From: a virus
Length of the DNA stretch: 38,399 bases
Virus record (IMG/VR): IMGVR_UViG_3300001686_000005
Span: 8,222-46,620 of that record
Reading direction: 5' to 3' (one strand)
This document shows positions 4,590-36,952 of this stretch, piece after piece. The number at the start of each line of letters is the position of its first letter. The stretch's first letter is position 1. A program made the position numbers and the translations under genes. Under the pieces are notes generated by a model. The model had not been told where the DNA came from, did not search any database, and worked only from the letters and a program-made list of their open reading frames with translations.

Positions 4590-5170
4590 TCCGACACACC
4601 ACCCGCACGCCACATCGTCGCCGGAAGACGCCACCACGCACGGCCACGCGACACACCACGCTCATCCCGCAACCCGCGCATGAGACGCGCGCCCAGGAAC
4701 TCCAGAGCGTTCGCGATCGTGTCGCCCATCTGATCCACAGCGGGAGCGGACCGCTCCCGCTGAAACCCCGCAAACGCGGCCAACTGGACATGCGCCACGT
4801 CCATGCCGTGCCGGTTGCCCACCCGCGCCACATACGCGGTGCCCGTCGACACAGCGGTGTCGTACTCCCGAACCGGCGGCCGGGCCTCCAGGTAGTCCCG
4901 CAACGCCGCGCGGATCTCCATCACCCGGGACTCCACGGTCCGAGCGCTCACCGCGTCCATGCGCCGCGCCAACTCCCTTGCCACCGGAATGGACACGAAC
5001 GGCTCCGGCTGGACGTCCACGGCCGACTGCCCCCACAGCACAGGCACCTGGGCCAGGTCCACCTGTGCGCGGAGCGCGGACGACGGGGCACCGGTCAGGG
5101 CGGACGCCTGCTCCATGGTCAGGAACAACGTCTGCTCCACCTCCCCCAGGGGGATCACGTTCTCGTTCAT
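4586..5170 (-). CDS. Helix-turn-helix domain protein, 194 aa
   Basis: Leftward gene of 194 residues. Residues 18-45 (LFLTMEQASALTGAPSSALR) form a MerR/Xis-like helix-turn-helix with a wing ending in FVSIPVARELARR; the rest is helical and Arg-rich. ATG at 5170 has no Shine-Dalgarno but lies 6 bases after the -10 box TACTGT, so the mRNA is probably leaderless. It is coupled to the second HTH gene (GTGA overlap). Likely DNA-binding; the target may be the adjoining gene-free region, which is inference. Confidence 0.65.
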   Translation of the reverse strand: MNENVIPLGEVEQTLFLTMEQASALTGAPSSALRAQVDLAQVPVLWGQSAVDVQPEPFVSIPVARELARRMDAVSARTVESRVMEIRAALRDYLEARPPVREYDTAVSTGTAYVARVGNRHGMDVAHVQLAAFAGFQRERSAPAVDQMGDTIANALEFLGARLMRGLRDERGVSRGRAWWRLPATMWRAGGVSE

Positions 5171-5176
5171 AGCGCG

Positions 5177-5205
5177 ACAGTACCTCACTCGACCAGCTAC
5201 CGCAA
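5177..5205 (-). promoter_or_regulatory. Leaderless promoter of the two-HTH operon
   Basis: TTGCGG (5200-5205), 17 bp, TACTGT (5177-5182), then six bases to ATG at 5170. Transcription would begin at or next to the start codon. It lacks the ATCCC operator extension. Confidence 0.6.
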
Positions 5206-5447
5206 CGCTCTGTCCGGTATGTCCGCTTAACCGATACAGGAAGATTTTTTAGGAACTAAATGGACGGGTTTGGACGTAGTTTGCCCCGTCCAAATAGCTC
5301 GCTCGTAAGACCAGCTCAAGACGCCGCAGGGCACCTAGGACCCGATTTCTGAAAAAAACCTTACGTCCAATTAGATAAGAACCGTGCCTATTATTTCCAG
5401 AAACCCACAACCGGGTGCCCCGACACCACCCTCCGAGCCCTAATCCG

Positions 5448-5805
5448 CTGACCAGGAACGCGACAGACGGCCCCAACGCGATCACGGACGCCACCCTCCG
5501 GCGCGCGAACCGCTCCCGCCTCCTCGACCGAGGATCCGGCCAACTTCACCTCTGTAGTAGTGCGCAGCTATTTAGCCGCCTAAACGGCGCTTCCAAGTTT
5601 TTTTAACGACACTATGACGTAGCGCTGCAAACCACGCTAGGTCATAGTGTCGCCGTTTGCGTGTTCGTCGAAAACCGTGGACAATCCCACAGGACCCCAG
5701 GTCGTAAATGAAAATCTTGGTACAACCGCTGGTCAGCAAGCTACCTATTTCGACACAAGTTCCACGTCCCGATACACCACAATATTTTGAAAAACCTCTG
5801 ACCAG
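5448..5805. repeat. Iteron-like octamer CTGACCAG
   Basis: Exact copies at 5448-5455 (+), 5729-5736 (-) and 5798-5805 (+); the related heptamer GACCAGC also occurs near 5309 and at 6017. Few copies and irregular spacing, so only suggestive of replication iterons. Confidence 0.4.
5607..5652. repeat. 18-bp inverted repeat (cruciform/hairpin)
   Basis: Left arm 5607-5624 and right arm 5635-5652 are complementary at 17 of 18 positions around a 10-base loop. An outer pair AAACGGCG (5582-5589)/CGCCGTTT (5651-5658) nests around it. A run of seven T precedes it. No gene ends here, so a terminator role is unlikely. Confidence 0.7.
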
Positions 5806-5904
5806 CATGTTTCAGTGTTATTTGGACACCTACTGACGTCAGACAAAACGGACAGATGTAACCCGAGATACCTAGCGCAACATCAGCGTTGGCATTCGGC
5901 CTAA

Positions 5905-5916
5905 CCTAGCGCTAGG
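5905..5916. repeat. 12-bp perfect palindrome CCTAGCGCTAGG
   Basis: Its half-site ACCTAGCG recurs near 5868 and, inverted, at the right arm of the long inverted repeat (about 5635-5642). May be a protein-binding site in the gene-free region. Confidence 0.5.
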
Positions 5917-5960
5917 CAACAGTGCTACATTGATACCTGTAGATTGTTACCCCGAACCTA

Positions 5961-5989
5961 TTGACACACACGTGGTTTCGAGGTACTTA
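5961..5989 (+). promoter_or_regulatory. Orphan rightward promoter
   Basis: TTGACA (5961-5966), exactly 17 bp, TACTTA (5984-5989). It points into sequence with no supported gene and towards the hairpin at 6148-6172. Confidence 0.5.
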
Positions 5990-5995
5990 AGAGAG

Positions 5996-6175
5996 GCTTT
6001 ATGCATTCAGACGTTTGACCAGCAGCAACGCACCGTCGTCGCCGTGCCAAGTCACTCAGTGTGTCGTTACCTACGCTCCGCATTTTCGCAGGTGGCCACG
6101 CCGCTGTGCCTCTTGACCGACCGGCCAGTTCGTCAACTTCGTGACGACCGGTGTCAGGTTGCCTGACACCGGCGC
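5996..6175 (+). ncRNA. Candidate small RNA of about 180 nt
   Basis: Bounded by the promoter at 5961-5989 and an 11-bp hairpin with a 3-base loop at 6148-6172. The only frames are a 5-codon ATG frame and a frame with GTG/TTG starts lacking any ribosome site. Could be a counter-transcribed RNA of a plasmid-like origin or a phage regulatory RNA. A 40-codon peptide from a GTG inside it cannot be excluded. Confidence 0.3.
6148..6172 (+). terminator. Strong hairpin, candidate terminator
   Basis: CCGGTGTCAGG and CCTGACACCGG pair perfectly over 11 bp with loop TTG. No U-tract follows; a second weaker hairpin (6180-6195) comes right after. Confidence 0.5.
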
Positions 6176-6230
6176 TGTGCCTACTGGCCGGTAGGTTCCC
6201 GTCCTAGAGCTGTTCCACCCATGGATATCG

Positions 6231-6248
6231 GGGATGTCAACTTCTTGA
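6231..6248 (-). promoter_or_regulatory. Operator element without a good -10, copy 8
   Basis: Exact GTTGACATCCC with the dyad GTCAA-GAAG-TTGAC, but 17 bp downstream lies TGGAAC, a poor -10, and the next leftward gene is over 1 kb away. It looks like an operator that is not an active promoter, or a decayed promoter. It sits just past the end of the gene at 6252. Confidence 0.6.
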
Positions 6249-6251
6249 CCC

Positions 6252-6581
6252 CTAGGCGGCGAGAAGCCGGACAGCCGCCATGTGGTAGCACTCGCGGCCC
6301 TTGAGGCCCGCCGGGCACGTGCAGTTGCGGGCAGCCGTGAGGTAGGTCCGGTCCGCCTTGCTGGACAGCACGCGGAACACGCGGCGGCCCTTGACGGGCA
6401 CCAGGGCGGCGAACTCGATCAGCTCACGTGCCTTGGTGATGGCCTCGGCCTTGGCGTCGACGGTCGCCTTGGCGACCTTGCCGGCGCAGGTGGGACCCAT
6501 GCCGCGCGCGATGCTGGCCTCACTGCGGAGCGTCCGGCCGCAGCGGATGCACTTGACGGTGGGGTTCGTGGTGGCGGTCAT
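6252..6581 (-). CDS. Zinc-binding protein with SWIM-like motif, 109 aa
   Basis: Leftward gene; ATG at 6581 behind GAGGAGGACACC. Two metal sites can be read: CIRCGR at residues 11-16 with GMGPTC ending at Cys32 (pattern of DUF6011-like proteins of actinobacteria and their phages), and CTCPAGLKGRECYH (C87, C89, C98, H100), the CxCx8CxH signature of SWIM zinc fingers. SWIM domains bind DNA or protein. Single gene driven by promoter 6608-6636. Exact role unknown. Confidence 0.8.
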   Translation of the reverse strand: MTATTNPTVKCIRCGRTLRSEASIARGMGPTCAGKVAKATVDAKAEAITKARELIEFAALVPVKGRRVFRVLSSKADRTYLTAARNCTCPAGLKGRECYHMAAVRLLAA

Positions 6582-6607
6582 GGTGTCCTCCTCGGTGGTG
6601 TAGTTAA

Positions 6608-6636
6608 AGACTAACCGTGGATATCCGGGATGTCAA
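6608..6636 (-). promoter_or_regulatory. Phage promoter/operator element, copy 9
   Basis: TTGACA (6631-6636), 17 bp, TAGTCT (6608-6613); operator core GTCAA-AGAG-TTGAC present. The +1 TGTCAG motif is missing. Confidence 0.8.
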
Positions 6637-6659
6637 CTCTTTGACCTTAGTCCATAAGA

Positions 6660-6689
6660 GTGACGCCTCGACCGTAGTCGAGGCGTCAC
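6660..6689 (-). terminator. Perfect 13-bp hairpin after the gene at 6697
   Basis: GTGACGCCTCGAC and its exact complement flank a 4-base loop (6673-6676). It lies 7 bp past the stop codon of the leftward gene. Only scattered Ts follow. Confidence 0.65.
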
Positions 6690-6696
6690 CGCCCGT

Positions 6697-6876
6697 TCAC
6701 TCTTCGGGGATCACCATGAACGACTTGCCGGCCGTCTCTGGCCGGTTGCGCGCCTTGAGCACTGCCGCGTCGTAGTTCTTAGCCTTCACCCGGCACAACA
6801 GCACGCGATCCACGCCCAGCACCCACCACCAGCCCTTCCAATTTTTGGGAACGCTGAAATCCCGCACCTTAGGCAC
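6697..6876 (-). CDS. Hypothetical protein, 59 aa
   Basis: Leftward gene with a GTG start at 6876 behind GGGGAG, overlapping the end of the upstream gene by 8 bases. Short, basic N-terminus followed by a Trp-rich strand (NWKGWWWVLGVDRVLLC), a Lys-rich helix and an acidic tail. No family recognised. Second gene of a two-gene operon that ends at the hairpin 6660-6689. Confidence 0.7.
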   Translation of the reverse strand: MPKVRDFSVPKNWKGWWWVLGVDRVLLCRVKAKNYDAAVLKARNRPETAGKSFMVIPEE

Positions 6877-7099
6877 CAGGTGTCTCCCCTCGGTCGCGGA
6901 GCACCATCGCGCACAGTTCCCGACTCAGCGACGCCTGAAACACGAGGTCGGGGCTGGTGGCCTTGGCCAACTTGGTGTCCGCCGCCCGCCAGCCCGCGAC
7001 CAGGTCACGTGTGCTGGCATTCCAGTGCCCAGGGGAGCGGAATGAGTGCGCCCGGCTGATACCGGCCCGGATTTCCCCGGCTCTGCCCACGTTGTCCAT
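6869..7099 (-). CDS. Hypothetical protein, 76 aa
   Basis: Leftward gene ending in TAA at 6869. ATG 7099 is taken as the start; GTG 7120 in the same frame is an alternative and both have weak ribosome sites. Helical and basic (TRDLVAGWRAADTKLAKATS), no cysteine cluster, no membrane span. Promoter 7191-7219 would give a leader of 60-85 nt. Function unknown. Confidence 0.6.
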   Translation of the reverse strand: MDNVGRAGEIRAGISRAHSFRSPGHWNASTRDLVAGWRAADTKLAKATSPDLVFQASLSRELCAMVLRDRGETPGA

Positions 7100-7190
7100 G
7101 AGGGGTCGCTTTCCGGTCACGGGGCCAAGCTTCGTGCCCTCGGGTTTTCGAGCTACATGCCCCGTGACCTGCTCTGTTGTTGTACCTGTG

Positions 7191-7219
7191 ACTCTACCCG
7201 ATTGAACGAGAGATGTCAA
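7191..7219 (-). promoter_or_regulatory. Phage promoter/operator element, copy 10 (variant)
   Basis: TTGACA (7214-7219), 17 bp, TAGAGT (7191-7196). The extension reads ATCTC instead of ATCCC, one of only two near-variants in the family. Confidence 0.75.
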
Positions 7220-7246
7220 CTCCTTGGCATCCTCCGTTCGGGTGAC

Positions 7247-7645
7247 TCAGCCGTTCAGCTTGCGCAACTTGGTCCGGGCCGTGGCCATCGTCAGCCGCTC
7301 ACCCGACTTGCCCACCGGGCCGACTTCGGGCACGTAGGTCACCATCGACTTGGTCAGCTTGACGATGACCGCCGGACCCATCGTGGTGGTGACCGTCTGA
7401 CCGACCTCGAAGGCGTCCAGCGCCGGGGCGACCCGCTTCGCGCCCGGCAGGGTCTTCGGGGCCTCGATGCCCAGGATGCGGCAGCAGTCGGCACAACTGA
7501 CGGGGGCGTCCACCTGGCTGAATCCGGCCTCGACGATTTCGTAGCCGGACGCGCGCCGCATGTTGGAGCAGAGGACCGGGTTGCGGTCGGTGACGGCGGG
7601 GGCGTGGACGACGGTCCCGTTCTTGGCCACCAGGTTCTTCGTCAT
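7247..7645 (-). CDS. Hypothetical protein, 132 aa, Cys-containing and beta-rich
   Basis: Leftward gene; ATG at 7645 behind AAGGAGCCGGAC. The N-terminal half carries LCSNMRR and later SCADCCRILG, possible zinc ligands. The C-terminal half (FEVGQTVTTTMGPAVIVKLTK, then MVTYVPEVGPVGKSGERLT) looks like a small SH3/KOW-type barrel as in several neighbours. May bind nucleic acid; inference only. Single gene under promoter 7678-7706. Confidence 0.75.
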   Translation of the reverse strand: MTKNLVAKNGTVVHAPAVTDRNPVLCSNMRRASGYEIVEAGFSQVDAPVSCADCCRILGIEAPKTLPGAKRVAPALDAFEVGQTVTTTMGPAVIVKLTKSMVTYVPEVGPVGKSGERLTMATARTKLRKLNG

Positions 7646-7677
7646 GTCCGGCTCCTTCGTTCTGGGCTGATATGTAA

Positions 7678-7706
7678 AGACTAACCTATGGATCGGGGGA
7701 TGTCAA
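7678..7706 (-). promoter_or_regulatory. Phage promoter/operator element, copy 11
   Basis: TTGACA (7701-7706), 17 bp, TAGTCT (7678-7683), ATCAGCC at +1 (7665-7671). Shares its leader (TTTACATATCAGC) with copies 3 and 12. Confidence 0.85.
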
Positions 7707-7733
7707 CTCTTTGATCTCCTCCATTCGGGTGAA

Positions 7734-27927: not shown

Positions 27928-28782
27928 GTGAACGATCACCAGTGCGCAACCCACTGTGGCCGCCCGGCCCCCGAAACGGGGCTGTGCCGTACCTGCTCGG
28001 ACGCGCTATGCGCGGACTTGCGCACGGTGTGTGACCGCATCACCGACAGCCACGGCAACCCCGTCCGCACCCTCGCTGACGAACTTCTCGTCACCCTCAC
28101 CCGAAGCAACCGCACCACCAACGCCCGCGTCGGCGGCCGGTCCGCCACCACCCCACTGCCCTGGCACGAAGCCGCCGGAGACACCGTCCGGCGGCTTCGC
28201 TCAGTACTAGGAACGTGGGCTTCACGCCTACACCTGTTGTACTCGCCGAAACTCCCGGACCCCACCGACCCCACCGGCTGGTTCCAACCACCACCGGACT
28301 TCACCGCCGATATCGAGTCGCTGGCCGCCTGGTTGCTGCGTCACCCATCGTGGATGACACAGCACCCCGACGCCGATGATCTATACGTGGACATCACCGG
28401 CGTCATCGGTGAGGCGTGGCGCATCATCGACCATGCTCCCGACCGCTGGTACGCCGGACCGTGCTCCGTGAAGGACTGCACTGGCCAGGTGTTCGGGGAC
28501 CCCGGCGGCGCGGTGGGCGTGTGCCCGGTATGCGGCAGTAGTTACGACATGGCGCAGCGTCGCGCCTTCCTGTTGGACGCGGCCCGCAACTACGTGCTGA
28601 CGGCGGCCGAGCTGTCCCGGGCGTTGCCGGTCCTGTTGGGGGTCGCGGTCAACCGCAAGACGATCACCACCTGGGCGAACCGAGGAATCCTCATCGCCGT
28701 GGATCACGACGACCGGCGCGGCTGGCCCCTGTACCGCATGGGTGACGTGGAAGCGTTGGTGCTCAAGAAGGTCAGCGCGTAG
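27928..28782 (+). CDS. Zinc-ribbon and helix-turn-helix protein, 284 aa
   Basis: Rightward gene with GTG at 27928; no Shine-Dalgarno, and CACACT lies 7 bases upstream, so perhaps leaderless. N-terminal CATHCGRP...CRTC and a central CSVKDC...CPVCG supply two zinc sites. The C-terminal 70 residues (YVLTAAELSRALPVLLG, then NRKTITTWANRGIL and PLYRMGDVEALV) form a MerR/excisionase-like winged helix. Such proteins often lie just upstream of terminase genes in actinophages and are annotated as DNA-binding. A late-gene regulator or packaging aid would fit, but this is not shown. Confidence 0.75.
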   Translation: MNDHQCATHCGRPAPETGLCRTCSDALCADLRTVCDRITDSHGNPVRTLADELLVTLTRSNRTTNARVGGRSATTPLPWHEAAGDTVRRLRSVLGTWASRLHLLYSPKLPDPTDPTGWFQPPPDFTADIESLAAWLLRHPSWMTQHPDADDLYVDITGVIGEAWRIIDHAPDRWYAGPCSVKDCTGQVFGDPGGAVGVCPVCGSSYDMAQRRAFLLDAARNYVLTAAELSRALPVLLGVAVNRKTITTWANRGILIAVDHDDRRGWPLYRMGDVEALVLKKVSA

Positions 28783-29542
28783 CCGCCCGCAACACCGCCA
28801 TCGTCGCCCGCCCCACAACCTCCCCCGTGCTGTTCCCCGAGAACACAACCAGGTTCACAATCCAGTCACGGGAGGTCCCCAACGTCGGAGTCCACGTCTG
28901 AGTCGACGACAACGCCGTGTTCGGAATCTTGTACGCGTTGTGAATCGATTGCGGATTCGTCGCGGACGCAGCCAACGCCGGAGTCAACGACACCCAGTTG
29001 CCCCCCGTGGTGTTCGTGGAATCTTCCGTGAACGTCTCCCCCGACAACGAGTCCACCGACATCCCCGCGTACCACAACACCGCCGGAGCCGTCGCCCCCG
29101 GATTCAGGTTGTCCGACGGGGCGGTGGACGTTCCCGTAGCCCCCGTCGCGTCATTCGCCCACGGCTGACCTGCCGCCGGAGACACCCCCGCGAACTCATC
29201 CGCCGTCATCGCGTAGCACTGGTCGCCGGTCGGCATCGTCACCGTGATTGTGTCGCCCGCCTGCAACGCGGTCGCCAACACCGAATACCACACCTCATTG
29301 ATACCGAATGTGGAATTGGTTTTCGTGAACGGATGCGCCCAGGTGTTCGACCGAGTGTCCGCGATCGTCACCGACCCGGAGGTGTAGTTGAACCCCGCGA
29401 AATGCACCACCACCAAGTGTCCCACCGCACACCCTCCGGCGGGCACAGTGACCGCCAGGGTCGAGGCGCTGGACGCCTGCGTCGCGGTGCCCACGCTCTG
29501 CACAAAGGACAGGGGCACGTTCGGATTCATGGAAGCAGGCAC
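28772..29542 (-). CDS. Leftward beta-rich virion- or surface-type protein, 256 aa
   Basis: Only leftward gene near the late operon; convergent with the gene ending at 28782 (11-bp overlap). GTG at 29542 is chosen for AAAGGGGGTACTCC; ATG 29530 is possible. Thr/Ser/Gly/Ala-rich with repeated beta-strand texture: STLAVTVPAGGCAVGHLVVV, GSVTIADTRSNTW, DTITVTMPTGDQ. This layout is found in phage tail or decoration proteins and secreted adhesin-like domains. No signal peptide. May be an independently transcribed moron-type gene. Confidence 0.65.
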   Translation of the reverse strand: MPASMNPNVPLSFVQSVGTATQASSASTLAVTVPAGGCAVGHLVVVHFAGFNYTSGSVTIADTRSNTWAHPFTKTNSTFGINEVWYSVLATALQAGDTITVTMPTGDQCYAMTADEFAGVSPAAGQPWANDATGATGTSTAPSDNLNPGATAPAVLWYAGMSVDSLSGETFTEDSTNTTGGNWVSLTPALAASATNPQSIHNAYKIPNTALSSTQTWTPTLGTSRDWIVNLVVFSGNSTGEVVGRATMAVLRAATR

Positions 29543-29647
29543 CGGAGTACCCCCTTTCCCGTCGGGGTGTCGTGGTGACACGGTAGCGGGTTGTGTGGTT
29601 GAATCCATGGCACCACGGGTGAGCCATGCCTTCAAGGGGGTGACACC

Positions 29648-29857
29648 GTGGATCTTGCCTCCCTCTGGCGGCTCCTCTGGCCCGGCTGGGACGCCTTGTG
29701 GCCCAACATCCTCGCTTCCGTCATCTGCGGTTTCGTCGCATGGCTCTGGGCGCGTCGCCATGTCCGCCGAATCCACCGCAAACTGGACCGACTTCACGAG
29801 CACCTAGGCGTCGAGGACACTCCGTCGAAAAGCAACACCACACAAGGCCCAACCTAG
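29648..29857 (+). CDS. Small membrane protein, 69 aa
   Basis: Rightward gene; GTG at 29648 behind AAGGGGGTGACACC. One hydrophobic segment (WPNILASVICGFVAWLWA, residues 18-35) after a Trp-rich start, then a basic part (RRHVRRIHRKLDRLHEH) and a polar tail. This N-out, basic-in layout is seen in many phage membrane peptides, holin-like or terminase-neighbouring. Stop codon lies in the loop of a terminator. Confidence 0.65.
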   Translation: MDLASLWRLLWPGWDALWPNILASVICGFVAWLWARRHVRRIHRKLDRLHEHLGVEDTPSKSNTTQGPT

Positions 29858-30469: not shown

Positions 30470-31976
30470 CCGTTTGGACCCGCCGGACCCGAACGTCTTC
30501 GCCAAGCTCGAATACATCCCCACCCCGCGACAAGCCGAATTCCATGAAGCACTCGAATTCGATGTGCTTTACGGTGGCGCGGTAGGCGGTGGAAAGACCA
30601 AGGCTCTTGTCGCCGAGGGAATCAAGCAGTGCGTATTGCATCCCGGTTTGCGCGTTGGAGCGTTCCGACGCACCTACGGTGAGCTCAAGGAATCACTGCT
30701 GGCGGAACTCGCCCAAATGATGTACGGCAAGACTGTAGGAGCCTCATGGAACGGGTCGGAATACGACCTGAAGTTCTCCAACGGATCCGTCATCATGTTC
30801 CGATACGCTGAGAGCATCGCAGACGCCAACCGTCGCCAGGGTGGCCAATACCAACTCCTGCTGTTCGACGAGCGCACCCTCACCCCGCCCGACGTGTGCG
30901 CGTTCCTCGAATCCCGGTTGCGGTCCGGCCGCTCCGACATTCCCGTTGTCGGCATCCGCTCCGGAACGAACCCCGGTGGAGTCGGGCACGGCGACGTTAA
31001 AACTCGTTACATCGAAGCCACCGACAACGGCAAAAAGGTCGTCTTCGACAAGAAGGGCCGTGCTGTCCGGTTCATTCCCTCCAAGCTGTCTGACAACCCG
31101 CACATCAACCCCGAGTACGCCGACGACCTCAAGGCCCTTCCGGACCACCTCCGCCGCGCGTTCCTGGACGGAGATTGGAACCTGTTCGCCGGACAGGTCT
31201 TCCAGGAATGGGGTACCGGGGAGCGCTACACCGTGCGCCCCATGGAGTTGCCCGCCACCTGGAAGCGGTACATCGGCGTCGACTGGGGATACACCGCGCC
31301 CTGGGCCGTCGTCTGGGGAGCCGTGGACGAAGACGGCCGCGTCTGGATCTACCGCGAGTTGTACGCCCGCCAGGTCGGAGAAGCCGAACAGGCTCAACGC
31401 ATCCTGGCCGCTGAAGCCGCCGGGGAAGTCGTGTCCGACCGATTCGCCGACGATGCCATGTGGGCCACCCGGGGCGACGCCAAACCCATCTCTGACATCT
31501 ACGCGGAGAACGGCGTCCACCTCACCCGTGCCGGAAAGGGCGCGGGAAGCCGCGTCAACGGCTGGCAGCGCATCCACACCTACCTGAAGGAAGCGCCCGC
31601 CTGTCCGCATCACCGCGCATTGGGGCAGGAAACCTGCCCGAATCTTCACGTGTTCGACACGTGCGCCAACTTCATTCGCACCATTCCCGCGTTGCCGCAT
31701 GCTAAGACCGGCGACCCGGAAGATGTCGACACCAGCTCGGACGACCACATCGCGGACGCGCTTCGCTACATGCTCGTCAACATGGGCTCCGGTCCTGAGT
31801 TCGTGATCCTGGATGAGTTGCCCACCGTCGACTCGATTCCGATGGCGCAGCCGCTCGGCCCGTATGCCTACGTGCCCAGGCCCGACTATGAGCCTTACAC
31901 CTACGACGATTACGGGGCGGAGGTGAACATGCCATGGGCTTCTGGCAACGGCTATTCGGATCGCAGGACGTGGTGA
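30435..31976 (+). CDS. terL: Terminase large subunit, 513 aa
   Basis: Rightward gene; GTG at 30435 behind GGGAGGCGAAGACTC. ATPase domain with Walker A-like GGAVGGGKT (47-55) and Walker B LLLFDE (141-146), then an RNase-H-like nuclease with GVDWGYT (Asp283), FADDAMW (339-340) and TSSDDHIADALRY (436-437). It powers DNA entry into the prohead through the portal and cuts the concatemer. Length and motif spacing are normal. The last 43 bases overlap the portal start, implying coupled translation. Confidence 0.95.
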   Translation: MLRKSFASLLADRLDPPDPNVFAKLEYIPTPRQAEFHEALEFDVLYGGAVGGGKTKALVAEGIKQCVLHPGLRVGAFRRTYGELKESLLAELAQMMYGKTVGASWNGSEYDLKFSNGSVIMFRYAESIADANRRQGGQYQLLLFDERTLTPPDVCAFLESRLRSGRSDIPVVGIRSGTNPGGVGHGDVKTRYIEATDNGKKVVFDKKGRAVRFIPSKLSDNPHINPEYADDLKALPDHLRRAFLDGDWNLFAGQVFQEWGTGERYTVRPMELPATWKRYIGVDWGYTAPWAVVWGAVDEDGRVWIYRELYARQVGEAEQAQRILAAEAAGEVVSDRFADDAMWATRGDAKPISDIYAENGVHLTRAGKGAGSRVNGWQRIHTYLKEAPACPHHRALGQETCPNLHVFDTCANFIRTIPALPHAKTGDPEDVDTSSDDHIADALRYMLVNMGSGPEFVILDELPTVDSIPMAQPLGPYAYVPRPDYEPYTYDDYGAEVNMPWASGNGYSDRRTW

Positions 31977-33523
31977 CCGAGACTGTCAAGGAAATCGACC
32001 CCACCAAGACGCCTACGCGCTCCGGATTCGAATACGGAATCCCCGAGGGCGGTATCAACGAGTACACCCAGGGCATGGGGGCCGCGACCCAAACCGATCG
32101 TCGCTCCATGATGCAGCAGCTCTACGAGTCGTATCTTGCGTGTCCGTGGAGCTGGGCGTGCACCAACGCTATTGCGCGCACCATCACCGCCGGTGGGCTC
32201 ATGACCGATTGGGACTCCGACACCGGGGAAGGCGACCAGGAAGCCCCCGACAAGCCAGACAATGTGCTGGCGTTGGAACGGCTTCTGAAGTACTGCAACC
32301 CGCAGGAAGACATGCGTCAACTGTTGCGGGGAATCATCTCCGACCTGTTGGTGTTCGGGGACGCCTACATTGAGGTGGTATGGCTCGGTGGCGTTCCGGT
32401 GTCCATGTACAGCCTGGACTGCCCGTCCACGTTTCCCTTGGCGAACGAGCACGGCGAAGTCACCGGATACGTTCAGGTCACCGAATTTGGTCAGCGCGCC
32501 GAGTTCAAACCCAAGGAAATTATTCACATCTCCCTGGACTCGCCCCGGTCGGGCGTGTTTGGCGTGTCCCCCACGCAAGCCGCGTTGCTTCCTGTCACAG
32601 CATGGCTTTTCACCGCCGCATCTCTGAAGGAGACGTTCCGCAAGGGGAATCCCCCGAACGTGCACGTCGACATGCCGCAAGGGCTTTCACAGCCGGAGAT
32701 GAACCGGTGGACCGCGCAGTACATGCAACGCAACATCGGGCCACGCAACATCGGGTTCCCGCTCATGACCAAGGGCGGCGCGGCCGTAAAGGAATTGCAG
32801 CAGAACCGCATTGAGGAATACCTGCACACGCTCGACCAGAAGCGTGACGAGATCCTCGCCACCTACGGTGTGCCACCCGCCGAAGCTGGAGTGATCGAGT
32901 CCGGAAACCTGGGCGGCGGCACAGGAGAATCCCAGCGCAAGACGTTCCTTGTCAACACATGCCAGCCCATCGCGGAACTCGTGCTGGAAAAGTTGAACTT
33001 CTACATCGTGCAACGCGGATTTGGGATCCAGGGCTGGCACCTCAAGTTCGGCGAAGTCGACATGCGCGACTCCAAGACCATCGAAGACATCCGGGACATT
33101 CGTTTGCGGAACGGTGCCTGGACCCTGGACCGCTACCGCGCCGACATCGGAGAGCCCGCCGTGGACGGCGGGGACGCGGCCGTGTTGGTGGACCGCCAGA
33201 ACCTGGTGTTGTGGCGCGACATGGACGCCAAGTCCAAGGCGCAGATCGCAAGGGACCTCAAGGGTTCCGCCCTGGATCCCGGGGAACCGGGCGAGAAGGA
33301 CGACCCGATGGCGTTGGAGAAGCCGGAGAAGCCGGAGATCCCGCCCGCACTCGCGGCCGGGGCCGGGCTTCCCGGGGTCCCGCCGGCACCGCCGGGCGCG
33401 CCGCCCGGGCCGGGCGGGCGCAAACCGCCAGGCAGCCGGCCGCCACGTGAATCGTGGCAACAGCGTTACCGAACACGGTTGCGAGAAGCGTTGAAGGCGC
33501 TCCCTGATGACTTCGCCGATTGA
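31934..33523 (+). CDS. Portal protein, 529 aa
   Basis: Rightward gene; ATG at 31934 behind GGAGGTGAACATGCC. Follows TerL as expected and shows portal hallmarks: SYLACPWSWACTNAIARTIT near residue 65, a crown/wing region with ISDLLVFGDAYIEVVW (near 140), and LDQKRDEILATYGVPPAEAG (near 300) as in HK97-type portals. The C-terminal 90 residues are Pro/Gly-rich and basic. It forms the dodecameric ring at one vertex through which DNA passes. Confidence 0.9.
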   Translation: MGFWQRLFGSQDVVTETVKEIDPTKTPTRSGFEYGIPEGGINEYTQGMGAATQTDRRSMMQQLYESYLACPWSWACTNAIARTITAGGLMTDWDSDTGEGDQEAPDKPDNVLALERLLKYCNPQEDMRQLLRGIISDLLVFGDAYIEVVWLGGVPVSMYSLDCPSTFPLANEHGEVTGYVQVTEFGQRAEFKPKEIIHISLDSPRSGVFGVSPTQAALLPVTAWLFTAASLKETFRKGNPPNVHVDMPQGLSQPEMNRWTAQYMQRNIGPRNIGFPLMTKGGAAVKELQQNRIEEYLHTLDQKRDEILATYGVPPAEAGVIESGNLGGGTGESQRKTFLVNTCQPIAELVLEKLNFYIVQRGFGIQGWHLKFGEVDMRDSKTIEDIRDIRLRNGAWTLDRYRADIGEPAVDGGDAAVLVDRQNLVLWRDMDAKSKAQIARDLKGSALDPGEPGEKDDPMALEKPEKPEIPPALAAGAGLPGVPPAPPGAPPGPGGRKPPGSRPPRESWQQRYRTRLREALKALPDDFAD

Positions 33524-34198: not shown

Positions 34199-34834
34199 AT
34201 GGCGACGACCGTAGTCGTGACCGCCAAGGGACGCGAAGTTATTGCCGGGCGTATGACCGGCTCCGCGACCGAACCAAAGCAGTTGGGATGGGGAACCGGC
34301 GGAATCGCCGGTGGTCCGTTCACCGCTGCCACAACTGATGTAGCCCCGTTCTCGGAAGCGGCAGAAGTTCGCGTGGCCGGAACGTCGTCCATCGCGACGA
34401 CAACCACCACGAACGACTCCTACCAGGTCGTGGGCACCATCACGAGCCTGAGTGGCCAGACCATCGCGGAAGTGTTCCTGTCGGACTCCGCCACCAAGCC
34501 GTTCAGCACAACGTGGGCGACCGCGCCGACCGGAACCGGTGGCACAACCGGAACGCTGGCCGCGTCGTACACCCCGGCGAACAACACCTACATCCAATGC
34601 CGCACCGAAGTGATGCAGGTGACCGCCGGAACCGGAACAACGTCGGTGACGATTTCCCGGGGCCAGAACGGGTCGGCCGCCGTGTCCCAGTCGAACGCGG
34701 ACGCCGTGACAACCGGCAACCCGCCGGGAACCGCGACCGCGAACAGCACCCTGTACGTGCACGCGTCGTTCACGGGATTGGCGCTCAACACCGGGGACTC
34801 ATTGCAGTCGACCATCACGGTCAAGCACTCCTGA
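34199..34834 (+). CDS. Virion-type beta-rich protein, 211 aa
   Basis: Rightward gene; ATG at 34199 behind GAGAGGTGAGAA, 3 bases after the previous stop. The start TTVVVTAKGREVIAGRMTGS, the LGWGTGG motif (about 30-36) and the ending FTGLALNTGDSLQSTITVK match a widespread phage protein type of about 150-220 residues that lies among structural genes. Likely a virion component, perhaps a tail or fibre part; exact place unknown. Almost no charged residues in the second half. Confidence 0.7.
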   Translation: MATTVVVTAKGREVIAGRMTGSATEPKQLGWGTGGIAGGPFTAATTDVAPFSEAAEVRVAGTSSIATTTTTNDSYQVVGTITSLSGQTIAEVFLSDSATKPFSTTWATAPTGTGGTTGTLAASYTPANNTYIQCRTEVMQVTAGTGTTSVTISRGQNGSAAVSQSNADAVTTGNPPGTATANSTLYVHASFTGLALNTGDSLQSTITVKHS

Positions 34835-34843
34835 GAGGCCAGC

Positions 34844-35341
34844 ATGGCAACACTGTATTTCGCGGCCAACGGGGCCATGCCGACCACGGCCGCACTCGTG
34901 AAAGTCACCACGGGAACCGCGATCAAGACGATGTTGCAGATTGCGTCGTCCGCGACCCGTCCACTGAAGGTGGTGGAGTGGGGAATCAGTTTCGACGGGT
35001 CGGCCGCCGCGACTCCCATTCAGTGCGAGTTGATCCAAACTGACGTGGCCGCCACTGTCACCGCCCATGTGGCCGCCGGAGTCCAGCCTTACGACGACCC
35101 GAACGCCCCGGCGTCCACGGTTACCCTAGGTGTTTCCGCGACCGGCTACACGGCAACGGTGGAAGGGTCCATCACCACCACCAAGTATGGAGACCTTCAA
35201 TTGGTGGCCCCTACGAATCAATATGTGAAGCAATGGCCGTTGGGTCGGGAATTTCAGGTTCCGGTGTCCAAGTTTCTGCGGGTCAGGGTCACGGCTGCTG
35301 CTGCTGTCAACGCCTACACGTATGTCATCTGGGAGGAATAG
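34844..35341 (+). CDS. Virion-type protein, 165 aa
   Basis: Rightward gene; ATG at 34844 behind GAGAGGCCAGC. Hydrophobic beta-sandwich texture (LYFAANGAMPTTAALVKVTT, KVVEWGISFDGSAA, FLRVRVTAAAAVNAYTYVIW) typical of phage structural proteins that follow fibre-type genes. No catalytic motif. Probably assembled with the preceding protein. Exact role unknown. Confidence 0.65.
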   Translation: MATLYFAANGAMPTTAALVKVTTGTAIKTMLQIASSATRPLKVVEWGISFDGSAAATPIQCELIQTDVAATVTAHVAAGVQPYDDPNAPASTVTLGVSATGYTATVEGSITTTKYGDLQLVAPTNQYVKQWPLGREFQVPVSKFLRVRVTAAAAVNAYTYVIWEE

Positions 35342-35357
35342 TTAGCCTAGCTAACTA
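35339..35357 (+). repeat. 8-bp hairpin across the stop codon
   Basis: TAGTTAGC-CTA-GCTAACTA begins at the stop of the preceding gene. Too A/T-rich to be a strong terminator; may be an RNA processing site between two late genes. Confidence 0.45.
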
Positions 35358-35377
35358 TAACCTGGGAGGGGCGCGAA

Positions 35378-36900
35378 ATGGCTAGGTTCTTTCGCGCCTA
35401 CCCCGGAAACCACGTCCTCACCCGCCGCGTCACCGTCACCGGTCAGGCCCTCACCCAAACCCTGACCGTCACCGTGTCCACCACGGGCACCGTGAAATCC
35501 CAAACCGGCCGCGCCTTCTCGGCCACGATCACCACGGCCGCCACCGACCTCATGCGTTCCGGCCGTGCCCTGGCCACCGCCATCACCACAGCCGCCGCAC
35601 TCGTCCAGTCTCCGCGCGCTGTGTACAAGGCCACCATCACCACCACGGGAACCCTGACCCGTGCCCTGACCCGCACCATGGCGGCCACAGTGGTGAGTGT
35701 GGCGGCCATGGCCCGCGCACAAGCCACCCGCTACCCGGCCACCGCCACCGCCACGGGCGCAATCACCCGAGGAGCACGGACGCAGTACGCCGGAGCCGTC
35801 GGACTGCAAGGCGCGGACACGCTCCGCGTTGCCGCCAAGTACCCCACGACCGTCACGGCCACGTCGACCCTTGGCCGTGCCCTGTCGGCTGCCTACCACG
35901 CCACCGCCGCCCTGACCGGGGCCGCGCGTCGGACACTGGTCCGGATCTTCGGCACCGTCACTGTCACTGCGACCGCGACCGCACCCAACACCGTCCAGGC
36001 CACCCGCTCCGCCACCGTGTCCACGTTCGCCACGCTGACCCGTGCGGCGCGGCCACTGTTCGCGAGCACCCTCGGCCTGTTCCCGACACTGGGACGGGCG
36101 CTGTCCACGGCGCAACACACCACAGTCACCACCACCGGGGCCACAAGCCTGATCCGATCGCTGTTCCGGACGTGGCCCACCACCATCTCCGCCGCACCCG
36201 TGATCACACGGTCACTGACCGTGGCATACCGGGTGTCGATCGGCGCGGTTCCCGCCATCACGCGCCGAGTCTCGATCGGACTGGCCACCCTCACCGGGCT
36301 ACCCGCAATCCTGACCAGGCGCATCAACCAGACCTACCCCGGCACCGTGACCACCACTGGCACGACGCGGCGCATGGTCACCGTGTTCCAATCGACCACG
36401 GTCACCACCACCGGCACCGTCGCCCGCACCCTGGGACGCGCGTTCGCGGTCACCGTCGCCACCGCCGGAAGCACGATGCGGCGCGCGGTCGCCGCTCTCT
36501 ATCCGATCGCCGTGGCCACCACGGGAACTGTCGGCCAGGCGTTGCGCGTCAACCGGAACACCACGGTCACGCTGTCCGCCCGTGACGGGCTCATGCCGAA
36601 CCTGATGTTCCGGACCACCGTCGCCACAGCCGGAACCCTGGGCCGCGCGCTTCGCGCCCTGTATCCGGTGACCGTCACCGTGCCCGCACGGATCGGCCGC
36701 GCCTTGAACCAGACGTTCCCCGTCACGGCGACCCTGGTCGCCGGCCGTGTCGGACGCCTGACGCACACCTTCCCCACCGCCACCGTCACCACGGCGGCGG
36801 CACTGGCCAACACCTACCGACTCACCGGACGCGCCGCGATCACCACCACGGCCACGCTGATCACCAACGTGACCCGCGCGGCGGCCGATGTCGTGTTCCG
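35378..36900 (+). repeat. 54-bp coding repeats
   Basis: The 18-residue protein repeats correspond to degenerate 54-bp DNA repeats carrying phrases such as ACCGTCACCACC and CGTGCCCTG at regular spacing. They probably grew by unequal recombination. Confidence 0.65.
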
Positions 36901-36952
36901 ATGGGGCCGTGCCCGTCCACTGTGGAACTTTAAGAACCCGACACGTGACTGA
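35378..36952 (+). CDS. Repetitive Thr/Ala/Arg-rich protein of 18-residue repeats, 524 aa
   Basis: Rightward gene; ATG at 35378 behind GGGAGGGGCGCGAA. Almost the whole chain is about 27 degenerate repeats of 18 residues with consensus T-T-V-T-T-T-G-T-L-G-R-A-L-x-x-x-Y-P. Each repeat has a Thr/Val strand and an Arg-containing amphipathic part; Asp and Glu are nearly absent, so the protein is extremely basic. A beta-solenoid or a fibre shaft is plausible from the strict 18-residue period. Located between virion genes and the tail-fibre gene, so probably structural. Ends 9 bp before the fibre start. Confidence 0.75.
   Translation: MARFFRAYPGNHVLTRRVTVTGQALTQTLTVTVSTTGTVKSQTGRAFSATITTAATDLMRSGRALATAITTAAALVQSPRAVYKATITTTGTLTRALTRTMAATVVSVAAMARAQATRYPATATATGAITRGARTQYAGAVGLQGADTLRVAAKYPTTVTATSTLGRALSAAYHATAALTGAARRTLVRIFGTVTVTATATAPNTVQATRSATVSTFATLTRAARPLFASTLGLFPTLGRALSTAQHTTVTTTGATSLIRSLFRTWPTTISAAPVITRSLTVAYRVSIGAVPAITRRVSIGLATLTGLPAILTRRINQTYPGTVTTTGTTRRMVTVFQSTTVTTTGTVARTLGRAFAVTVATAGSTMRRAVAALYPIAVATTGTVGQALRVNRNTTVTLSARDGLMPNLMFRTTVATAGTLGRALRALYPVTVTVPARIGRALNQTFPVTATLVAGRVGRLTHTFPTATVTTAAALANTYRLTGRAAITTTATLITNVTRAAADVVFRWGRARPLWNFKNPTRD

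Follow-up and report, generated by a model that had tools for sequence, protein, structure and literature searches.

Filaments built of repeats and anchored at their N-termini are a known class. The adenovirus fibre shaft combines a short N-terminal anchoring motif with a repeated beta shaft, a triple beta-spiral of 15-residue repeats, and the fibre carries a knob. In the exosporium of Bacillus, the N-terminal peptides of BclA and F-Anchor dock on jelly-roll trimers of BxpB/ExsF, and the F-Anchor peptide sits in the cleft between two subunits of the trimer (PMC10470788, PMC11952670). In the head appendages of HFTV1 a base protein carries a trimeric head protein (PMC12494034).

The locus described here lies in a stretch of 38,399 nucleotides (the window) taken from a virus record of 58,182 bases (IMGVR_UViG_3300001686_000005), and pairs a 524-residue repeat protein with o165, a predicted jelly-roll protein encoded upstream. 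Its likeness to BclA and F-Anchor lies in a putative repeat filament, in a short conserved N-terminal peptide containing a proline, and in the presence of ExsF/BxpB among the structural neighbours of o165. The Bacillus proteins differ in having collagen repeats and a C-terminal C1q/TNF-like head, and in belonging to a bacterial spore. We make no claim of homology between o165 and ExsF/BxpB, which share the common jelly-roll arrangement at Z about 7.5, and docking of the phage peptide is proposed by analogy. Compared with the adenovirus fibre, the window protein has an 18-residue unit, no knob and no sequence match in the PDB. The o165 model resembles chains of both the HFTV1 turrets and the KHP40 cement protein, but no repeat filament is described for these capsid decorations. 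The combination of a constant anchor, wholly exchanged arrays and a jelly-roll adaptor is new in our view.

The locus and its repeat gene

The genes run in the order small terminase (a weak match), large terminase, portal, two small ORFs, o211, o165 and the repeat protein, followed by tail-fibre-like, MuF/head-morphogenesis-like, protease/scaffold-like and capsid-like genes and further tail genes up to a tape-measure-like one; past the fibre, all genes but the MuF-like one were named from their position and the look of their sequence and not from profile matches. The features that matter here are the following.

31934..33523, + strand: portal protein (PF04860, E 2.6e-26; phrog_12, E 8e-44)
34199..34834, + strand: o211, 211-aa structural-type protein, 93-97% identical in close relatives
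34844..35341, + strand: o165, 165 aa, predicted single jelly-roll (AF2), linked to motif-bearing repeat proteins in other viruses
35378..36952, + strand: repeat protein, 524 aa
35378..35419, + strand: constant N-terminal peptide MARFFRAYPGNHVL (residues 1-14), a putative docking peptide that carries the family motif
35462..36880, + strand: array of 26 units of 18 residues (residues 29-501), from a register-free unit model
36881..36949, + strand: C-terminal tail of 23 residues (ending in VVFRWGRARPLWNFKNPTRD), about 57% identical in the relative L002
36962..38399, + strand, running off the window (L007:6962-8578): tail-fibre-like protein directly downstream of the repeat gene, 538 aa in the full record (PHROG tail families, DUF5907)

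The virus is probably a long-tailed phage of an actinobacterium, since the relatives of its portal are mostly Streptomyces and Arthrobacter phages and the closest o165 among named genomes, 82% identical, is that of Nonomuraea typhae, in a prophage (L103). Upstream of the terminase, on the opposite strand (28772-29803, -), lies a 343-aa ORF without a PHROG match, which looks like a secreted or lectin-like beta-sandwich and by eye is like the proteins often encoded between o165 and the repeat gene. Beyond the window (L007:14965-15516) there is a 183-aa basic protein with a 24-residue period (KKHPHKGHALSSATRAKLSSARKGK...); it resembles the NUMOD3-type modules of homing endonucleases.

The interval 35378-36952 is a real coding sequence. 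It holds an ATG ORF of 524 codons on the + strand, as the first-pass annotation had proposed; its frame is open in all relatives, its dN/dS is about 0.5 and most other frames contain stops. In one of the reverse frames stops are few or absent, which GC-rich coding sequence often shows. We rejected an overlapping antisense gene or a reading artefact, because the other frames of the relatives mostly carry stops and the dN/dS fits the + frame.

The 18-residue repeat is likewise real. The autocorrelation of the protein peaks at lags of 18, 36 and 54 residues with BLOSUM z = 10.5, 7.8 and 6.1 (about 7-10 for the 18-residue periodicity), and a unit model without preset register finds 26 units over residues 29-501, scoring 390.6 against 4.3 +/- 2.7 for the shuffled sequence, so that both measures stand far above shuffles. 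The annotation had described 27 strict repeats running from start to end with very few acidic residues. The repeats and their period hold, but the units number 26, a 28-residue head and a 23-residue tail lie outside the array, and the period is looser than strict, with a pairwise identity of only 24% among the units and steps of 19-20 residues at four places. The low acidic content was counted as 5 D and no E, next to 54 R and 4 K. The unit reads [Y/L]-x-[G/A]-T-V-T-T-T-[G/A]-T-L-x-R-A-[L/V]-x3.

No DNA-level tandem repeat of this unit occurs in the gene, and the array is therefore old and not a product of recent slippage. Recent tandem duplication was rejected on the same ground and by the low identity of the units; it is also contradicted by the orthologous units, which are 0.44-0.46 alike compared with 0.25 for other pairs of units.

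Relatives of the repeat protein are encoded on five viral contigs, at full length in L002 and L003 and partially in L004-L006. The full-length relatives are 46-48% identical to the window protein, while the flanking proteins (portal, o211, o165 and the capsid-like protein) are 84-97% identical. The array length is kept with only small gaps, and a profile fitted to the window, L002 and L003 arrays gives 26, 27 and 26 units, small irregularities also being kept. Residues 1-14 are 93% identical to L002, compared with about 46% for the array. The best-kept unit positions between orthologues are R13 (0.69-0.85), T4, T6 and the aromatic or aliphatic position 1. The dN/dS of the repeat protein is 0.40-0.61; it is only 0.04-0.08 in o165 and o211, and 0.08-0.31 in the fibre, MuF and protease genes. 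The repeat gene is under purifying selection in its frame, far looser than that on its neighbours. At L002:2131-2439 the tail-fibre-like neighbour matches only in its first 105 residues and the next gene starts just after, the fibre body apparently having been lost or exchanged in that contig.

The neighbour o165 and the genes linked to it

The o165 gene ends 36 bp upstream of the repeat gene. Its AF2 model, built with 74 sequences, is an all-beta fold with pLDDT 93.5 and pTM 0.89, a confident prediction of a jelly-roll. Structural comparison of this model with VIA-align returned viral jelly-rolls, the trimeric cement protein of phage KHP40, an HFTV1 turret chain and ExsF/BxpB, including the ExsF/BxpB complex with the F-Anchor N-terminal peptide, all at Z 7-10, a level typical of the common jelly-roll arrangement at which only that arrangement is informative. 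Foldseek of the model against the PDB gave nothing at E <= 0.001, and against the predicted viral proteins of BFVD it found mainly uncharacterised phage proteins. In the gap between the two genes, a perfect 9-bp hairpin (ATAGTTAGC-CTA-GCTAACTAT; 35338-35358, +) overlaps the o165 stop; L026 has a different 9-bp hairpin in the same gap (GTAAATAGC-GTCCT-GCTATTTAC), and none is present there in L002, L003, L025 and L006.

Relatives of o165 occur in at least 111 viral contigs. They occur also in four named genomes or MAGs, i.e. Nonomuraea typhae, Nonomuraea sediminis, a Schlesneria MAG (Planctomycetes) and a betaproteobacterial MAG. The repeat protein itself has no match in that genome collection.

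Our data indicate that o165 travels with repeat proteins that begin with one constant peptide. Among the o165-bearing contigs, 54 distinct N-termini match the motif M[AS]R[LFH][GF]R[SA]xP, and a loose version of it is found within 4 kb downstream of o165 in 65 of 84 contigs, a few by chance. When we started from o165 and took the contigs with at least 3.5 kb of downstream sequence, 53 of 67 encode a motif protein, 44 of 67 a strongly periodic protein and 60 of 67 either one; several of those with a periodic protein only start with close variants of the motif (MARFKRAFP, MARLHRAFP, MARLGRGQP). The density of periodic + strand ORFs is 0.216 per kb within 3.5 kb downstream of o165 and 0.020 per kb elsewhere in the same contigs, a tenfold difference. 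Not every contig in these counts is independent, a few being near-duplicates such as L060-L062, L067/L068 and L002/L027. The reverse search used the DNA pattern for MAR[LF]GRxQPF alone, which avoids the bias of starting from o165, and gave 19 contigs. All 17 with adequate upstream sequence carry an o165 profile match on the same strand ahead of the motif. Two contigs are truncated at the upstream end: L111 has 218 bases there (it and L063, where o165 is present, are one contig), and L109 starts 10 bases before the motif.

The window protein shares every trait of this family: it starts with MARFFRAYP, which matches the motif, it has o165 on the same strand just upstream, and it carries a periodic array. 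Queries built on the repeat itself were less productive. The consensus repeat found no confirmed relative, and the DNA pattern for TTTGTLTR hit 16 viral contigs, none of them with the repeat. The record MW202615 (H35/L107) encodes a repeat ORF with similar units and neither motif nor o165, and was left out of the family count. At about 4710-7709 (+) of MW202615.1 there is a 1000-aa open frame with an Ig-like part and 18-residue repeats (SLVASIIKQTNKVLSISS), lying opposite an annotated hypothetical CDS (5774-7585, -), the strand of which is possibly misannotated.

The position of the pair changes from virus to virus. It lies between the portal and major capsid genes in the window, L063 and L085, between the major capsid and tape measure genes in L098, and after the tape measure gene in L103 (Nonomuraea typhae) and L105 (the Schlesneria MAG). 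Genes near the pair match minor tail, head or tail-fibre PHROGs, and in L105 the gene after the repeat protein matches head or virion structural families. The o211 gene is near o165 in the window, L029, L034, L041, L070 and L092. Most neighbours in L063, L085, L098, L103 and L105 are not detectably related to those of the window, which singles out o165 as the common partner. Viruses that are unrelated in other respects thus inherit the pair as a cassette within their structural genes. Such linkage of genes shows co-inheritance and not binding. A protein of 225-277 aa is often encoded between o165 and the repeat gene, matching a minor tail protein family in L105, and this protein could be the true docking platform in place of o165.

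Exchanged arrays, charge and fold

The arrays behind the constant N-terminus differ fully between viruses, with periods of 10, 14, 18, 20, 22, 24 or more residues or with S/T/P-rich stretches. The main classes were assigned as follows.

18-residue units like those of the window: L029, L034, L037, L076
18-residue units with E/D: L066, L084, L092, L098, L099
20-residue units: L028, L042, L063, L067
22-residue units: L082, L085
14-residue units: L046, L115
24-residue units: L045, L110
S/T/P-rich stretches: L053, L081, L095

The 18-residue arrays align in a single register by a substitution-weighted score (window versus L029, L037, L066, L092 and L098, p = 0.001; window versus L034, p = 0.008), and the 18-residue classes are one repeat. 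The last class comprises ORFs downstream of o165 with arrays almost purely of T/S or S/P/T (L081:9641-14461, L095:10306-13674 and L053:10602-11783). Their products of 1607, 1123 and 394 aa start with MARLLRSYG, MARFLRSYG and MARFKRTTG, and we read them as a mucin-like version of the same gene.

Parts of this family touch a described one. L098, L042, L028 and L066, which have the E/D version of the unit or the 20-residue version, match phrog_12240 (PHROGs v4, unknown function, 387 aa) with E 8e-7 to 3e-17; no function, o165 linkage or N-terminal motif is recorded for it. The window protein has no match in PHROGs at E <= 1, phrog_12240 included, no Pfam family above cut-off and no PDB entry. The first-pass statement that no described phage family has this repeat is therefore right for the window protein in these databases and too broad for its unit class.

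The positive charge of the window protein is a local variant and not a family trait. The net charge across the family ranges from -8 to +10 per 100 residues. Where the window unit has G/A, at positions 3 and 9, the L098-type units (L098, L066, L092) have E/D, and R/K at position 13 is common to both; the window array is positive because its conserved arginine has no acidic partners. This bears on an internal or DNA-contacting protein, whose arginine-rich array would bind packaged DNA or anionic wall polymers by charge. The excess of R and K over D and E and the rank of R13 as the best conserved unit position are what such a protein might show, but the family's charge range and the acidic residues in the same unit of relatives make it very improbable. 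The contact with DNA, teichoic acids or capsid that had been suggested from the charge is not supported, and we rejected charge as the key to function at the family level.

The fold of the array is less clear than that of o165. Run on the window protein together with its relatives, AF2 placed one or two strands in each unit at pLDDT 50 and pTM 0.37, and Foldseek of this model against the PDB found nothing at E <= 0.001. AF2 is reported to over-predict beta-solenoids for repeat proteins and to give confident yet unrealistic models for perfect repeats (PMC11795689), and we therefore do not take the strands as showing a beta-solenoid, though the array may have that fold. A fibrous surface protein, the broader of the shapes suggested earlier, is the most likely reading, given the setting among structural genes, the relatives and the beta-type unit.

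The main rivals remain two. The protein could be the shaft of a classical trimeric tail fibre, a triple beta-spiral or beta-helix mounted on the tail with a receptor-binding tip. The tail-fibre-like gene directly downstream agrees with this, and so does the place of the cassette in L103 and L105, where it comes behind the tape measure protein, as does the succession of N-terminal peptide, repeated shaft and C-terminal end in the chain; the hydrophobic unit positions 3, 5, 11 and 15 share parity, which fits a triple beta-spiral without proving it. However, only 23 residues follow the array, with no recognisable receptor-binding tip, the window cassette sits between portal and capsid genes, the S/T/P-rich stretches of relatives are incompatible with a beta-spiral, and neither sequence nor fold finds a match in the PDB. 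We consider this reading unlikely.

The second rival is a largely unstructured, mucin-like spacer for which only length and solubility would be needed, the periodicity being a relic of duplication. The low AF2 confidence, the high dN/dS, the freedom with which relatives exchange repeat type and charge and the S/T/P-rich arrays at the same locus all suit it; the disordered-looking arrays in L053, L081 and L095 also show that not every member of the family has a folded shaft. Against it, unit positions 1, 4, 6 and 13 are conserved between orthologues, arrays that are only 46% identical differ in length by no more than small gaps, different 18-residue arrays keep one register, and the window array, in contrast to the usual disordered spacer, contains many V, L, I and aromatic residues. 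We consider such a spacer unlikely too.

A proposed filament on a jelly-roll adaptor

We propose, with about equal weight for and against, that the repeat protein is a filament on the virion surface, docked by its N-terminal peptide on o165, with the array as an exchangeable stalk. The first ~14 residues, which are constant, would dock the protein; the 26 units would form an extended stalk rich in beta structure, with the short tail at the C-terminus as its free end. The docking platform would most likely be o165, the jelly-roll encoded just upstream, and the peptide may occupy a cleft of an o165 trimer, in the manner of the BclA and F-Anchor peptides on trimers of BxpB/ExsF. Reaching out from the particle, the stalk might make weak, multivalent contacts with the host surface or the surroundings. 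Selection seems to act on nothing but extension, periodicity and anchoring, which would explain both the fast divergence of the array and the wholly different arrays in other viruses. We infer the presence in virions, the trimeric state, the docking to o165, the fold of the stalk and the contact function alike.

At the level of the family our proposal is more tentative, and we lean slightly against it. Tailed viruses of Actinobacteria and, as the MAGs suggest, of Planctomycetes and Betaproteobacteria may share a common virion module of the jelly-roll adaptor o165 and a filament with an invariant peptide. Whole arrays (18-, 20-, 22- and 14-residue or mucin-like) would be exchanged behind this peptide, and the module would act as a plug-in decoration moving between head and tail gene clusters.

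Deposited phages hardly sample this module. Searches with tblastn of 50,697 phage records gave no match for the window protein, for o165 (from the window or L106) or for the L042 repeat protein; the L098 repeat protein has one match, in a record with neither the motif nor o165 in the stretch read. Our literature search found no description of the motif or of a fitting family. The o165-linked module, carried by environmental viral contigs and unmatched in these records, points to a diversity of virions unseen in cultured phages. Low-complexity "repeat proteins of unknown function" in soil viromes can be grouped by their anchor and neighbour and not by repeat sequence. If the peptide docks on o165, it could readily be used to display filaments on virions, and the selected parts, i.e. 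anchor, adaptor and extended array, would be set apart from the freely varying repeat. The module seems to be a widespread, uncharacterised means by which viruses fit their particles with interchangeable filaments.
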